From positions 1 through 40,854 of the forward strand of contig JAJTGL010000018.1 in assembly GCA_021297795.1 (NCBI GenBank): a stretch of DNA of 40,854 bases, written 5' to 3'. Source of the stretch: Planctomycetaceae bacterium. GTDB taxonomy: Bacteria; Planctomycetota; Phycisphaerae; Phycisphaerales; SM1A02. A model generated the notes under the pieces. That model saw only the letters and a list, made by a program, of their open reading frames with translations. It made no database searches and was not told where the DNA came from. The position numbers and the translations under genes were made by a program. Below, piece after piece: positions 9,959 to 34,120 of this stretch. How positions within the stretch are numbered: position 1 is the first letter of the stretch; every line of letters starts with the position of its first letter.

Positions 9959-9989
9959 CCAAGGTTGATCGAACGGGTTGCTGTCGCTC
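9959..9989 (+). promoter_or_regulatory. Bipartite motif copy 1: CCAAGG-N16-CTGTCGCTC
   Basis: CCAAGG at 9959-9964, exactly 16 nt, then CTGTCGCTC at 9981-9989. It shares both boxes and the spacing with five other intergenic sites in this window. Read as a promoter-like pair, it would give the 10286 gene a second, upstream start. Whether it acts as DNA or RNA cannot be told from sequence. Confidence 0.45.
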
Positions 9990-10112: not shown

Positions 10113-10143
10113 CCAAGGTTGCCGCGGGGAAGTGCTGTGTCTC
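10113..10143 (+). promoter_or_regulatory. Bipartite motif copy 2: CCAAGG-N16-CTGTGTCTC
   Basis: CCAAGG at 10113-10118 and CTGT at 10135-10138, 16 nt apart, about 148 nt before the start region of the secreted gene at 10286. The spacer and left flank are nearly identical to the copy at 12350 (CCAAGGTTGCCGCGGGGAAG in both), so these two promoter/leader regions look recently duplicated. Confidence 0.55.
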
Positions 10144-12349: not shown

Positions 12350-12380
12350 CCAAGGTTGCCGCGGGGAAGTCCTGTCACTC
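12350..12380 (+). promoter_or_regulatory. Bipartite motif copy 3: CCAAGG-N16-CTGTCACTC
   Basis: CCAAGG at 12350-12355 and CTGT at 12372-12375, 16 nt apart, 47 nt before ATG 12422. A gaaatc patch lies about 11 nt upstream of CCAAGG. The spacer base gcgggg (12361-12366) can also pair with ccccgc (12386-12391). The element directly follows the upstream terminator, which fits a promoter position. Confidence 0.6.
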
Positions 12381-16600: not shown

Positions 16601-16631
16601 CCAAGGGTGGGACCACGAAACCCTGTTGCCA
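16601..16631 (+). promoter_or_regulatory. Bipartite motif copy 4: CCAAGG-N16-CTGTTGCCA
   Basis: CCAAGG at 16601-16606 and CTGT at 16623-16626, exactly 16 nt apart, 22 nt before ATG 16649. The right box departs from CTGTCNCTC, but spacing and boxes hold. If it is a -35/-10 pair, the leader of the downstream gene would be only about 15 nt. Confidence 0.5.
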
Positions 16632-20395: not shown

Positions 20396-21042
20396 GCGCG
20401 ATCGGAGCGCTCGTCGCGAGCTTGCTCGTCGGCGGCGGTGTCGTGGTCACGTCGGGGTGTGCGCCGCGGTCGGCCTCGGAGTCCGCGCGCACGACACCGG
20501 ATGTCGTGGCGCAGGCTCCGGTCGATGTCGTGGACGGACGCATCGTTGAGCCCCTCGACGGCCCGGCTGGCACGTTTGTCGCGATCGTCTTCATCTCGCA
20601 TGAATGCCCGATCGCGAACGCGATGGCGCCCGACCTGCGCGCGCTCGCCGCGCACGCCGCCGCGAACTGCGTGGCGCTTCATCTCGTCCATCCTTCGCCG
20701 TGGGCCACGCGTGGCGAACTTCTCCGCCACGCGCGCGAGTTCGGCTTCGTGTCCGCCGCCGGAACCGATGTCTCCGTCCTCGCCGATCCGTCGCAGTCGC
20801 TGGTCGCACGCTGCGGCGCGACCGTCACGCCCGAGGGTGCGCTCCTCCGCCTCGATGGCAAGGGCGGCGGCGAACTCCTCTACCTCGGGCGCGTGAACGA
20901 CCTCTACGTGGGCATCGGGCGACGTCGGCCGTCGATCTCGTCGCATGACCTCGGCAACGCGATCGACGCAGCCGTTGCCGGACGCGCGATCCCGCAACCT
21001 TTCCCGAAGGCGGTCGGATGCTTCATCGAATCTCCGCGATAG
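20383..21042 (+). CDS. Exported redoxin-like protein (single-Cys, planctomycete type)
   Basis: A 219-residue predicted lipoprotein or exported protein; the hydrophobic start ends VVVTSGC with Cys26 as possible lipidation site. The thioredoxin-fold part contains FVAIVFISHECPIANAMAPD; only Cys75 is present where thioredoxins have CxxC. The ending YLGRVNDLYVGIGRRRP, HDLGNAIDAAVAG and AVGCFI is characteristic of planctomycete redoxins that accompany heme- or copper-binding proteins (recalled family context). It overlaps the copper protein upstream by 13 bp and the cytochrome gene downstream by 25 bp. Confidence 0.78.
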   Translation: MDRLSAIGALVASLLVGGGVVVTSGCAPRSASESARTTPDVVAQAPVDVVDGRIVEPLDGPAGTFVAIVFISHECPIANAMAPDLRALAAHAAANCVALHLVHPSPWATRGELLRHAREFGFVSAAGTDVSVLADPSQSLVARCGATVTPEGALLRLDGKGGGELLYLGRVNDLYVGIGRRRPSISSHDLGNAIDAAVAGRAIPQPFPKAVGCFIESPR

Positions 21043-22238
21043 GCATGCTGCTTGCCAACGCGGTGGTCGCCGACGCCTCGGGCACCGCGGATCCTGTCGC
21101 CGCACGCACGCTTTCCGATCGCTGCGTCACGTGTCACGACGCGGATGGACCCGCGCCACTCCGATTCGACTCGATCGAGGCGATCCTGCGTCATCGACAG
21201 CTGATGCGCGCGCTCGTCGACGATCGAGCGATGCCGCCTGCGGGACCCGAGACACCGCTTGCGAAGGTGGTCGCGGCGCATGCGACCCCTGGCGCGCTCA
21301 CGATCGCGGAGCGCGACGCGCTCCTCGCCGCACTGGCGTCGCCCGATGCCGCGCGCACGGCGTTTGCGTCGCTCGCGGCGGCACCGACGACGTCCGTCGC
21401 CAGCGCACCCCGCATCACTGCACTCGGCCGGTGGACGGTGCCCGCGACAGGCAGCATGCGGATTCGCAGCTTCTCGGCCGAAGTTCCGCCCGATGCCCCG
21501 CGGCGCGTGCGTGGTTGGCGTCTCGCCGCCGCCACCGACCCCGCGCGCGCGCCGGTCCGATTCCTCTCGCTCGCGCCGGATCCAGGCCGGGTGTCGCGCA
21601 TCCTCGACGAAACCGGAAGCGGCGCCGAGTCGATGGGCGATGTCGGCCTCGTACCGAGCGGCGCCCTTGGCGCGCTTTCACGAACCGCACCCGAGTTCCG
21701 ATTGCCCGAGGGCTACGCCTTCGAACTCCCGCGAGGCGACCTCGTGCTCGAGTCGACGGTCGAACCGATCGGTCGAGAGGCCGAACTGCGGCCATCGATC
21801 GAGCCGGTCGCCGCCAGCGACCACGATGTGCGAACCGTCGAGGCGATGGCCGCACGCATCGTGCCGCTCTCGATCGCGGCAGGCGAGCGCTGCGAACGTG
21901 TGGTGCATCTGCCGATCGCGCGCGACATGCGGCTTGTCGGTGTCGTGGCGAAGGGCGGGGTATTCCTCCGCGGCTACACCGTCGAGGTCGTCGCGGCCGA
22001 CGGCTGTCGGAGCGACATCGCGCGCGAACGGGATTTCCGGATGAATGTCGCGGCGCCGCTCGTCTTCCGAGAGCCGCCCGTCGTCGCCGCCGGCAGCGTG
22101 GTCGAGGTGCGATTCGACCTCGACAACACGCGCGCGAATCCCCTGCAGCCGTTCGACCCTCCACGAGCGGTTGCGGCGGGCCTGCCGCCGGAAGGCGAGG
22201 ACGCGGCGATCGTTCTCCTGGTGTCCCCGGGGCGGTAG
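21018..22238 (+). CDS. Exported monoheme cytochrome c-domain protein
   Basis: A 406-residue protein with a short signal peptide (MLHRISAIGMLLANAVVADA) and one c-type heme site CVTCH (Cys36, Cys39, His40). The following RFDSIEAILRHRQLMRALVD and MPPAG form the helix and axial-Met segment seen in planctomycete cytochromes, usually MPPW. The remaining 280 residues are beta-rich and resemble the jelly-roll part of copper type II monooxygenase-like proteins only in general layout. ATG 21045 is an alternative start just after the redoxin stop. It is the third gene of the copper-redoxin-cytochrome operon. The reaction is unknown. Confidence 0.78.
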   Translation: MLHRISAIGMLLANAVVADASGTADPVAARTLSDRCVTCHDADGPAPLRFDSIEAILRHRQLMRALVDDRAMPPAGPETPLAKVVAAHATPGALTIAERDALLAALASPDAARTAFASLAAAPTTSVASAPRITALGRWTVPATGSMRIRSFSAEVPPDAPRRVRGWRLAAATDPARAPVRFLSLAPDPGRVSRILDETGSGAESMGDVGLVPSGALGALSRTAPEFRLPEGYAFELPRGDLVLESTVEPIGREAELRPSIEPVAASDHDVRTVEAMAARIVPLSIAAGERCERVVHLPIARDMRLVGVVAKGGVFLRGYTVEVVAADGCRSDIARERDFRMNVAAPLVFREPPVVAAGSVVEVRFDLDNTRANPLQPFDPPRAVAAGLPPEGEDAAIVLLVSPGR

Positions 22239-22294
22239 ACCGGGCGTCGCGAGCATATGCCCGAATCGAAAAGAAGACGAAATCCGTCCGAAGA

Positions 22295-22325
22295 CCAAGG
22301 GCGCGACGCGCGTCCTCTGTCTCTC
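22295..22325 (+). promoter_or_regulatory. Bipartite motif copy 5: CCAAGG-N16-CTGTCTCTC (no gene downstream)
   Basis: CCAAGG at 22295-22300, 16 nt, CTGTCTCTC at 22317-22325, with gaaatc about 10 nt upstream of CCAAGG as at 12350. No plus-strand gene starts between here and the terminator at 22526. Confidence 0.5.
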
Positions 22326-22454
22326 TGGGTGAGGTGGAGTGGAGGACGCGCGGAACGCATCGCCCGCCGTTCTCGAACGGACACCCGCCTCAGAGATTTT
22401 CGTTCGCAAGATCGTCTGCGCGAACGCCTCGACTCCTCAACTCCGCGCCCCGAT

Positions 22455-22480
22455 GGTTGCAGAACCAAGGTTTTGCAACC
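22455..22480 (+). other. Hairpin with a nearly perfect 12-bp stem
   Basis: ggttgcagaacc (22455-22466) pairs with ggttttgcaacc (22469-22480) with one G-U pair; opening the last pair leaves a CAAG tetraloop. It lies 46 nt before the terminator stem and may belong to the same RNA. Confidence 0.5.
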
Positions 22481-22525
22481 GTGGACGGCTCGCGCAAGCG
22501 AGATGGGCGTGCGGAGGGCTCGCAC

Positions 22526-22563
22526 CGCGACCCACGCTGCATCTCGTGGGTCGCGTGTTTTTT
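22526..22563 (+). terminator. Rho-independent terminator downstream of the redox operon
   Basis: cgcgacccacg (22526-22536) pairs perfectly with cgtgggtcgcg (22545-22555) around an 8-nt loop, followed by tgtttttt. It is the clearest intrinsic terminator of the window. Confidence 0.88.
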
Positions 22564-22622
22564 GGGTCGCGTGTTTTTTGGGTCGCGTGTTTTTTGGGTC
22601 GCGTGTTTTTTGGGTCGCGTGT
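22548..22622. repeat. 16-bp tandem repeat made of the terminator's right arm plus T tract
   Basis: gggtcgcgtgtttttt is repeated four times (22548-22563, 22564-22579, 22580-22595, 22596-22611) with a partial fifth copy to 22622. The first unit is the 3' arm and T run of the terminator above; later units have no left arm of their own. Confidence 0.95.
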
Positions 22623-22831
22623 GATGTGTGTGCCCGTAGACGAAGGCGAAGCCGCAGTCTGCGGAACGGATGACGTCAGCCTTCCATGTATCGACTCCAC
22701 ACGCCCTGCTCTCGACCGACTTCATCTGCGTATACACAGATCTGCCGCACTCCCGGATCCCCTGCAGCGCCTCGGCCATGCACTCCCAAACGTCACCCGC
22801 TCGAAATCAACGTTCATAGAAAACCCCCGCC

Positions 22832-24313
22832 TCACTCGGCGTCGGAGTTCTCCAGCCGTCCATCGACCCGACTCCGCGGCGCACCCGTGATCGGGTCGCG
22901 CGGCACCGCCGAGAGAAACCTCGGCACAAGCTCCCCGATCGAGTTCGGCGCACGCCCCTCCGCCCGGCGAAAGCGCTCCGTCGCGATCGCGATGCGCGCG
23001 CCATCGCGCTCGCCGACCCCTCTCGCCACCCGCGCAAGCGCGGTACGCAGCGGCGCGGCATGTCCCGCCACGATCGTCGGACCCGGATCGACGAGCGATC
23101 GAGGTGGTACCGCAAGCGGCTTCCAGTCGGCCGGATGCTGCTTCATTTCCGCTTCGCGTTCGGCGATCGCTGCCTCGAACAGCGCCTTCATCTCCTGCCG
23201 CGTCGGCATCACTGCCCAGACGAGCGGCCCCGCGAGAAACGCGACCGTGGGATCGATCTCGCGCGACCCACCGAAGATGCCGAACGAGTCGTCCAGCCAC
23301 TGCAGCGCCGGCATGGTCAGCGCGCGTCCATCGCCGCGGCCATCGTCGGTGAACATGCGCTCGAGGGTCTCGTCAAGCTCCCATCGAGCGAAGTCGAGCC
23401 CGATCGGAACCGGGCCTTCACCGACGGCAAGCGCGAGCGCCTCCAGTCGATCGAGCGCCTCTCCATCGAAGGCCTGCGGCCATGTGGTCACCAGATTGCG
23501 CACGTCCTCCCAGAGCCACTTGCGGTCCATGGCCGCGGTGAGCTCCGTCGGCATCGACGGGTTCTCGAGCAGCTGCTCGGTCACACCCCACGCGGCCTCG
23601 AGATCCACGACCGCGCGCCGTCCATCACCTCGCTGTGCGGCGTGACGCGCGTCGATCAGGAGCATCGAGGCGATGTCCACGAGAAGCGACCGCGTGGGAT
23701 TCTGGAAGCGCCACATGAGTTCGGCATCGGGGTCCACGGCCGCCTCATCGCCATCCGGCTCGGCCACGATCCCGAAGAACCTCGCTGTCCGCACGTCGAA
23801 GGTGCGCGCCGGCACGAACCCGAACGGCTTCTTCACGGCGAGCGCGCGCATTGCAGCGATCTGCGGCTCCGACTCGGCCACGAGCCAAGCCCCGATCCTC
23901 CACCCCTCCTCGCCGGGGTGGTCCGCGACGATCGCCACGGCGACGAGGACCGTACGAGGTTCCGAAACCACGCGTCCATCGGCCGCGGCACGTGAGGCGC
24001 CCGCATCGTCCACAAGTTCCGGTGGAATTGCGATCTCCTCCGCAAGCCACGAGCAGTCGCAGCCGTCGCAGCCGGGCCGCTCGACCCAGAGTGCATCGAT
24101 GTACTTCGGAAACACCGGCTCCTGCGACGCGTCGAAGCGCATCGCGCGACGCCAGCGTTCCTCGCCACTGGTGCGAAGAGTCGGTGCACCAAGCGAAAGA
24201 ACGAATGCGAACCCGAGATACGCAAGCACGCAGCCGCACGCGAACACGAACAACCACCATGCGGTGCGTCGTACGCGACGGATGACCGGACGCCGCGCAA
24301 GCGGGTCGGTCAT
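22832..24313 (-). CDS. Membrane-anchored protein, shorter paralogue A of the HAAS-linked family
   Basis: A 493-residue protein of unknown function. One membrane segment (about residues 19-41) follows a basic start. The start at 24313 (MTDPLARRP) is chosen because the neighbour starts MDPLSRRP; ATG 24346 is also open. A conserved box reads EPVFPKYIDALWVERPGCDG and continues CDCSW (Cys82, Cys85, Cys87), possibly metal-binding or redox-active. The C-terminal part has AIATERFRRAEGRAPNSIGE and LSAVPRDPITGAPRSRVDG, a planctomycete C-terminal motif. It lies 65 bp after paralogue B on the same strand, probably co-transcribed. Confidence 0.75.
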   Translation of the reverse strand: MTDPLARRPVIRRVRRTAWWLFVFACGCVLAYLGFAFVLSLGAPTLRTSGEERWRRAMRFDASQEPVFPKYIDALWVERPGCDGCDCSWLAEEIAIPPELVDDAGASRAAADGRVVSEPRTVLVAVAIVADHPGEEGWRIGAWLVAESEPQIAAMRALAVKKPFGFVPARTFDVRTARFFGIVAEPDGDEAAVDPDAELMWRFQNPTRSLLVDIASMLLIDARHAAQRGDGRRAVVDLEAAWGVTEQLLENPSMPTELTAAMDRKWLWEDVRNLVTTWPQAFDGEALDRLEALALAVGEGPVPIGLDFARWELDETLERMFTDDGRGDGRALTMPALQWLDDSFGIFGGSREIDPTVAFLAGPLVWAVMPTRQEMKALFEAAIAEREAEMKQHPADWKPLAVPPRSLVDPGPTIVAGHAAPLRTALARVARGVGERDGARIAIATERFRRAEGRAPNSIGELVPRFLSAVPRDPITGAPRSRVDGRLENSDAE

Positions 24314-24378
24314 CGTCGTGGTTCGATTCTCTCCGCATGGGTTCATGGGTGTCCTCAGCGCATCCGCGCGGCGCCTCG

Positions 24379-25890
24379 CTACCGCGCCGTCGACCTTGCA
24401 CCCGAACGCTTGCGCGGATCCGCTTCTGCTTCTTTCTCGCGACCATCGAGCCGCGTGCGCGGTTCGCCGGTCTCGAGATCGATCGGCACCTCGCGCAGAT
24501 ACGTCGGCACGAGTTCGTCGATCGACTCGGCGGTGCGACCCTCCGCCCGGCGAAACCGCTCCGCCGCGATCGCGATGCATGCGCTGTCGCGGAGGGCGGT
24601 CGTCTGCCCGATGCGCGTCGACCAGTCCCGGATTCCGTCCGTCGAGAACCCGAGCAACGAGTTGACCGGATCGAGGATCGACTTTCGCGTCCTTCTCCAC
24701 GCTCTTCGATCCGCCGGTTGCAGCTTCAACTGCGCCTCGATCTCGGCAAGCGCCGCGTCGTATGCGGCGATCAGTTCCCTTCGAGTCGGCATGAGCGCCC
24801 AGACCACGGGTGCCATCAGGAATGCACCGATCTCCTCCGGGCGACCCTCAGTGTCGCCTCCCAATCCCTGCACGCTGAACGCACTGAAGATCGCCCGGGG
24901 CACGACCACGCCATCCACATGGCCATCGCCCTGGACCTCGTACGTGTAGCACGCATCGATCACTTCTTCGAAACCGACGCGCTCGCCTGCGAAATCGAAC
25001 TCGATCGGTCCATCGCCCGCCCTTGTCACGACCGAGCGAAGGCGCGCGAGCTGCGCGTCATCGAAGGCGTCCGGTTTCGCAAGCACCAATGCGTGCGCTT
25101 CCCCCCACGCCCACTCGCGGAACATGCTGGCGAACGCCTGCGCGAACGCGGTGCCGTTCTCAAGCGCATGATCCGAGATCTCCATGATCGCCTGCAGGTT
25201 GTCGATGGCGCGAGCGCCATCACCTGCGAACGCCGCGTGCCTTGCCTCCAGCCGTAGCAGCCGACCGACATGTGGAAGAAGCTCAAATCCTGGATCCTCG
25301 AGCGAGAAGCTGGAGGCCGCTTCGTCGGGTGACAGGGCAGCGGCCTCTTCGTGCGACGGGAGATCGAAGAACCGCGCCGTGCGCGCGTCGAACGAACGCT
25401 GCGGCATCATGCCGAAGGGGGTTTCCGGCGTCACCTTGCGGATCGCAGCGAGCCGTGCGGCCGAGTCGGCGACGAGCCACGTGCCGACCACCCATTCAGG
25501 ATCCGCGGGGAAACGAGCCTCAAGCGCGACCTTGATCCAATCTTCCCGCGGCCGCGATCCCTCCACCGGCGTCCGGTCCCTCATCTGCCCGACGACTCCG
25601 GTGACAGGCTCGATATCCGCCTCGAACCAGTTCTGCGCGCAGTCGCCACAGTCGGGTCGATCGAGCCAGAAAGCATCGATGTACTTCGGGAAGACGGGTT
25701 CCTTCGAGAGGTCGAAACGCACCGTGCGGCGCCAGCGCTCCGCTTCCGTCATCCGGTTTGTCGCCGTGCGCTTCATGAGGATCGACGCGAAGACGAGCCA
25801 CGCGACCGTACCCGCGATCGCGAGCACGAAGAGCGCCCACGCGGCACGACGAACGAAGCGGATGCGGGGTCTACGGGAAAGTGGATCCAT
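24379..25890 (-). CDS. Membrane-anchored protein, shorter paralogue B of the HAAS-linked family
   Basis: A 503-residue paralogue of the downstream gene. It has a basic start (MDPLSRRPRIRFVRR), one membrane segment at about residues 18-39, the EPVFPKYIDAFWLDRPDCGD box with Cys81 and Cys84, a long alpha-rich middle, and the C-terminal motif AIAAERFRRAEGRTAESIDE followed by YLREVPIDLETGEPRTRLDG. The tail adds basic residues (KEAEADPRKRSGARSTAR) missing from paralogue A. It is divergent from pgeF. It shares order and pattern with the 675-residue HAAS protein but lacks the HAAS domain. Confidence 0.75.
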   Translation of the reverse strand: MDPLSRRPRIRFVRRAAWALFVLAIAGTVAWLVFASILMKRTATNRMTEAERWRRTVRFDLSKEPVFPKYIDAFWLDRPDCGDCAQNWFEADIEPVTGVVGQMRDRTPVEGSRPREDWIKVALEARFPADPEWVVGTWLVADSAARLAAIRKVTPETPFGMMPQRSFDARTARFFDLPSHEEAAALSPDEAASSFSLEDPGFELLPHVGRLLRLEARHAAFAGDGARAIDNLQAIMEISDHALENGTAFAQAFASMFREWAWGEAHALVLAKPDAFDDAQLARLRSVVTRAGDGPIEFDFAGERVGFEEVIDACYTYEVQGDGHVDGVVVPRAIFSAFSVQGLGGDTEGRPEEIGAFLMAPVVWALMPTRRELIAAYDAALAEIEAQLKLQPADRRAWRRTRKSILDPVNSLLGFSTDGIRDWSTRIGQTTALRDSACIAIAAERFRRAEGRTAESIDELVPTYLREVPIDLETGEPRTRLDGREKEAEADPRKRSGARSTAR

Positions 25891-34089: not shown

Positions 34090-34120
34090 CCAAGGCCACG
34101 CGGGCGAGTCTCTGTCGCTC
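34090..34120 (+). promoter_or_regulatory. Bipartite motif copy 6: CCAAGG-N16-CTGTCGCTC
   Basis: CCAAGG at 34090-34095 and CTGTCGCTC at 34112-34120, 16 nt apart, 83 nt before ATG 34198. The right box is identical to the copy at 9981. A 14-bp palindrome, ctcctcatgaggag, begins at the end of the right box. Confidence 0.55.

Follow-up and report, generated by a model that had tools for sequence, protein, structure and literature searches.

Among described bacterial regulators, the element reported here most resembles the intergenic small RNAs that act in trans. It shares with them a promoter-like element, a length of 200-250 nt, hairpin domains, a C-rich linker and an intrinsic terminator, and like them it is restricted to a few related species. 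It differs in having no sequence or covariance match in Rfam and in having boxes unlike the sigma-70 consensus. The 6S RNA (RF00013) is similar in length and also strongly folded, but it forms a long rod with a central bubble while the RNA described here is predicted to form two separate domains. In a 2022 survey, the PVC group as a whole is represented by 8 sRNA families and Proteobacteria by 345 (PMC9029176).

Two further systems bear on the setting of this RNA. Promoters of ECF sigma factors have two short boxes, with -35 boxes such as GGAACTT (PMC8103513) and a spacing of 16-17 nt to a short -10 box. The motif upstream of the RNA likewise has two short boxes, a fixed 16-nt spacing that falls within this range and a TGTC-like -10, but its -35 box is CCAAGG, not GGAAC, and its sites occur at one locus only. 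In freshwater Phycisphaerae, unusual cohesin/dockerin 'planctosome' systems have been described (PMC6461901). The genome studied here is dockerin-rich and the motif-bearing genes of the locus include dockerin-type secreted proteins, as in that system; the published description covers proteins only and makes no mention of an RNA associated with a locus of this kind.

Results

The window, meaning the whole stretch of DNA that was analysed, is the entire 40,854-nt contig C105 of the assembly G000 (3,215,361 bases, 147 contigs). The prepilin-type and dockerin genes of G000 point to a planctomycete, probably a member of the Phycisphaerae. Within it, a cytochrome-like gene (21018-22238, + strand) and a convergent gene (22832-24700, - strand) are separated by a 590-nt spacer that holds a promoter-like motif, about 200 gene-free nt and a terminator. 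A sequence-only reading of the window had proposed that these elements specify a separate RNA of about 235 nt, running from motif to terminator. The motif copy of that reading, at 22295-22325, is an exact match on the + strand to CCAAGG-N16-CTGTCTCTC, with CCAAGG at 22295-22300, a 16-nt spacer and CTGT at 22317-22320, followed by CTCTC. No sigma-70 boxes (TTGACA/TATAAT-like) were found in 21000-24000. The stretch of about 200 nt after the motif did prove free of supported genes, as that reading had it: the ORFs in 22239-22563 were non-conserved and crossed single-base indels relative to the ortholog in G010, a second species of the genus. The intrinsic terminator given at 22526-22563 (+ strand, stem 22526-22555 plus T run) was recovered as the sole + strand terminator-like site in 21000-24000, and in G010 several pairs of its stem are altered with pairing retained. 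The terminator overlaps a tandem array at 22547-22622 on the + strand (a 16-bp unit, TGGGTCGCGTGTTTTT, repeated 4.8 times over 76 bp), which repeats the terminator 3' arm plus the T run and is absent from G010. The array starts with the T run as its first unit and its 4.8 units are perfect, which leaves the single 5' arm of the terminator a choice of several 3' arms for pairing.

We compared the locus between the two species. A DNA search detected the segment in G010 between the same two genes. The RNA bodies of G000 and G010 aligned with 153/185 identical positions (83%, z = 14.6 against shuffles), while the upstream 56 nt (z = -0.5) and the downstream 295/61 nt (z = -0.4) were unalignable. 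The conserved block therefore extends from motif to terminator, which delimits the proposed transcript, and we place the predicted small RNA at 22326-22563 on the + strand (about 235 nt), of which 22330-22516 matched the covariance model described below. The two segments differ by 17% substitutions and by indels of 1, 2, 11 and 34 nt. Upstream of the RNA, G010 keeps CCAAGG, the 16-nt spacing and CTGT, and shares only 3/16 spacer bases, about the number expected by chance.

The G000 and G010 RNAs were each folded separately and both folds followed the same plan, in which a long 5' hairpin is joined by the unpaired linker ACUCCUC to a 3' domain with a three-way junction, and the terminator comes last. 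The 5' domain (22330-22392, + strand) folded similarly in both orthologs. Its predicted helices are GAGGUG/CGCCUC at the base, GUG/CAC and GGAC/GUUC, topped by conserved apical CGCATCGCCCGCC and AACGGACACC. Relative to G010 this helix carries two double compensatory changes, two one-sided changes and zero broken pairs. An extra hairpin, CGTTCGC..GCGAACG (22401-22426, + strand), is predicted in G000 only and corresponds to a 34-nt gap in the G010 row of the alignment. It is followed by the single-stranded linker ACUCCUCAA (22432-22440, + strand), a candidate target-binding site of anti-Shine-Dalgarno-like sequence, in which ACTCCTC is unchanged in G010 and stays free of pairing in each of the two 3'-domain folds. 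In the 3' domain (22441-22516, + strand; fold z = -4.55 in G000) an invariant CUCCGC/GCGGAG stem closes a three-way junction. One arm of this junction is variable. It contains the 12-bp hairpin that had been noted at 22455-22480, which is present and extends to 13 bp in G000 (22453-22482, + strand); a different 6-bp hairpin occupies its place in G010. The other arm, CUCGC-GCAA-GCGAG (22489-22502, + strand), is identical at 14/14 positions in G010.

Fold stability was evaluated against shuffled alignments. When alignment columns of the whole transcript were shuffled the fold scored z = -4.4 and none of 500 shuffles was equally stable. Alifold column shuffles gave z = -6.95 for the terminator itself and a modest z = -1.96 for the transcript without it. 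By domain, column shuffles of the two sequences gave z = -2.3 for the 3' domain and z = -1.3 for the 5' domain, from a MAFFT alignment that misaligns part of the 5' helix. The folding stability of the entire G010 RNA was matched by about one shuffle in eight. Conservation and covariation had been named in the sequence-only reading as a way to check the RNA. The first part held, with a conserved ortholog in G010; the covariation part comprises two sequences only, and its pair-shuffle control had no power, as the observed counts were reached in 135/500 trials and the scored structure was drawn from the same two sequences. The predicted folds thus support, without proving, a structure conserved across the two sequences.

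The distribution of the RNA was assessed with a covariance model (R1) built from the G000 and G010 sequences. Applied to 16 genomes of the genus, 181 of the family and 400 sampled from the order, R1 identified the RNA in G000 and G010 only, leaving 14/16 genomes of the genus without it, and a pattern search for the 3' domain agreed with this distribution. Weak R1 matches in G162, G122, G075, G004, G002, G001 and L056 were attributed to chance; on inspection, G162, G122 and L056 proved to lack the conserved blocks. We also searched 84,980 bacterial and archaeal genomes with the pattern CATCGCCCGCC-N3-12-ACGGACACC, which returned 40 loci. The sole true homolog among them by the covariance model was L089, the G010 contig, and the planctomycete matches L081, L098 and L108 appear to be coding or unrelated DNA. 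L089 (JASGCF010000012.1) is deposited as 'Limnohabitans sp.' MAG13, and this organism name is probably wrong, the contig being very probably that of G010, a close planctomycete-like relative. Plasmid and phage collections gave no match to the segment. In two congeners, G002 and G005, the genes on either side are kept, and an unrelated spacer replaces the RNA. These two spacers (L052, L053) are 84% identical to each other and carry repeated GTGATC units at the place of the RNA. Presence in only two genomes, with a different spacer in G002 and G005, indicates that the RNA arose recently or is frequently lost, a common pattern among small RNAs of bacteria.

Neither ortholog matched an Rfam family at the gathering threshold or at E <= 5. 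One hit, to mir-2830 (Rfam 15), was rejected as a chance match, as it lay on the other strand and scored 16.8 bits against the 70 needed. The 6S RNA (RF00013) was rejected as well: neither ortholog gave a covariance match at E <= 5, and 6S candidates lie elsewhere in both genomes. These candidates are sub-threshold 6S matches (L168, L169; G000:C109:7623-7762 and G010:C269:4223-4397) that occur once per genome in 11/16 genomes of the genus, and they are probably true diverged 6S RNAs that fall below the Rfam cut-off.

The exact motif CCAAGG-N16-CTGT occurs six times in the 3,215,361 bases of the genome, always on the + strand of C105, as compared to three times for a reversed control. When up to 3 mismatches were allowed the window held 6 matches, whereas the expectation from shuffled sequence was 1.0 and 0/100 shuffles reached 6; as the pattern was defined from the window first, the count within the window is partly post hoc, while the absence elsewhere in 3.2 Mb is not. 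The sequence-only reading had listed five copies. All five are present and the count was short by one, the sixth being the copy at 16601-16631. Two copies, at 9959-9989 and 10113-10143, lie upstream of a long secreted-type ORF at 10.3-12.1 kb that had no Pfam match. The copy at 12350-12380 has its CTGT 46 nt from the ATG (12422) of a dockerin gene, and the CTGT of the sixth copy lies about 24 nt from the ATG (~16650) of another. The gene preceded by the copy at 34090-34120 is of secreted type and matches dockerin weakly; its ATG (34198) lies 82 nt from the CTGT. The copies at 10113 and 12350 are near-duplicates, similar well beyond the motif, and so probably represent a single duplicated promoter. 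The remaining four have little in common outside the boxes. Across the aligned copies both the 16-nt spacing and the CCAAGG of the -35 box were kept in 7/7.

The motif was not enriched in 60 relatives, with no excess over the reversed control. Misbinning of C105 is an unlikely reason for the confinement of the motif to this contig, since the tetranucleotide correlation of C105 was 0.987 with other G000 loci as compared to 0.887 with G010. A conserved RNA hairpin in the motif spacer was considered and rejected: the perfect 10-bp inverted repeat GCGCGTCCTC..GAGGACGCGC of G000 is absent from G010 and from the other copies. CCAAGG-N16-CTGT is most likely a promoter read by an alternative sigma factor. 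The window ORFs that were scanned included no sigma factor gene.

The window clusters dockerin-type secreted genes between 9959 and 35058 that have the local motif in common. The shared motif suggests that the RNA and the dockerin genes could be co-regulated, and co-regulation with the secreted proteins had been proposed from the outset. This proposal fits C105, where the motif precedes dockerin-type genes. It does not extend further: of the roughly 155 dockerin matches genome-wide in G000, the approximately 150 outside C105 are without the motif, and so is the one dockerin-locus gene examined in G010, which occupies the matching position. As this G010 gene lacks the motif, the promoter of the RNA would be the conserved part and the link to dockerin genes may be specific to G000.

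Discussion

We consider the segment probably to be an independently transcribed, structured small RNA. It would most likely be an intergenic RNA of about 235 nt transcribed from its own promoter, and the ortholog in G010, with boxes, spacing and predicted fold kept, supports the separate motif-to-terminator transcript that was proposed from the window alone. Alternatively, the cytochrome-like operon would run through the segment to its own terminator, making the segment a long 3' untranslated region whose structure protects or processes the mRNA, with any RNA being cut from it. The segment does follow the cytochrome-like gene by only 56 nt on the same strand, with no + strand terminator between them. 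However, these 56 nt are not conserved, and conservation starts exactly at a motif found elsewhere about 24-82 nt ahead of start codons. In G002 and G005, moreover, the cytochrome-like gene is retained at higher identity (64% vs 59%) without the RNA. We regard an untranslated region as unlikely on these grounds. That the transcript instead encodes a small protein deserves hardly any credence. A peptide of as many as ~60 residues would fit into about 235 nt, but no ORF of at least 10 residues closes within the stretch in G000, the single 19-residue ORF that does so in G010 is unmatched, the two segments have no ORF in common, and they are separated by 1-, 2- and 34-nt indels. The similarity to G010 could also be a mere trace of exchange at the neighbouring gene, with no selection on the RNA itself. 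Identity to G010 is 90.6% for the convergent gene (22859-24211) and ~67-82% for the remaining long matches of C105. The GC of this gene in G010 is 0.666 against 0.60 for the genome, and its third positions differ by 10.7%; it was probably exchanged recently between the species. Yet the RNA has diverged more than those third positions, by changes that preserve pairing, and the 295-nt spacer between RNA and gene is unalignable. The similarity is therefore better attributed to selection than to exchange, and we judge a mere trace of exchange very improbable.

The mode of action is a separate question. For a real RNA, base pairing in trans is a speculative reading to which we give somewhat less than an even chance. 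A rival on mode only is an independent small RNA that holds a protein (RNA polymerase, a CsrA-like protein or another RNA-binding protein) instead of pairing with mRNAs, which we hold to be rather unlikely. The longest invariant stretches (CGCATCGCCCGCC, AACGGACACC and CUCGC-GCAA-GCGAG) are apical or at the junction, as expected of protein contacts, and a crude duplex test against the mRNA starts of the window yielded no target, no gene pairing better with the RNA than with its shuffled versions. On the other hand, no recurring GGA loops of the kind seen in CsrA sponges are evident, a separate 6S candidate is carried by the same genomes, and the unpaired invariant ACUCCUC would suit pairing with ribosome-binding sites.

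For the independent small RNA we propose the following mechanism. RNA polymerase would be directed to the locus by CCAAGG-N16-CTGT, most likely as an alternative sigma factor promoter, and would start 6-8 nt past CTGT, at about 22326-22330. A two-domain RNA would be read and transcription would stop at the terminator near 22563, giving about 235 nt. The conserved single-stranded ACUCCUC would lie between the 5' hairpin and the three-way 3' domain, and this C-rich linker or the invariant apical loop may base-pair with ribosome-binding sites on target mRNAs, in the manner of other bacterial trans-acting small RNAs. A wider proposal is that the six motif copies are the whole regulon of a locus-specific sigma factor, comprising dockerin proteins of an extracellular complex and an RNA that tunes their translation. 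We think this improbable, but if true it would place a planctomycete extracellular protein complex under the control of its own small RNA.

Together these comparisons lend good support to a predicted bacterial small RNA whose promoter-like motif is unusual and confined to one locus. The coordinates, promoter, fold and terminator of the predicted RNA are precise enough for testing. A motif confined to one locus, before dockerin genes and an RNA, offers a handle on possible cohesin/dockerin control in planctomycetes. Planctomycete small RNAs are hardly catalogued, and this one would be a new family from an uncultured lineage.
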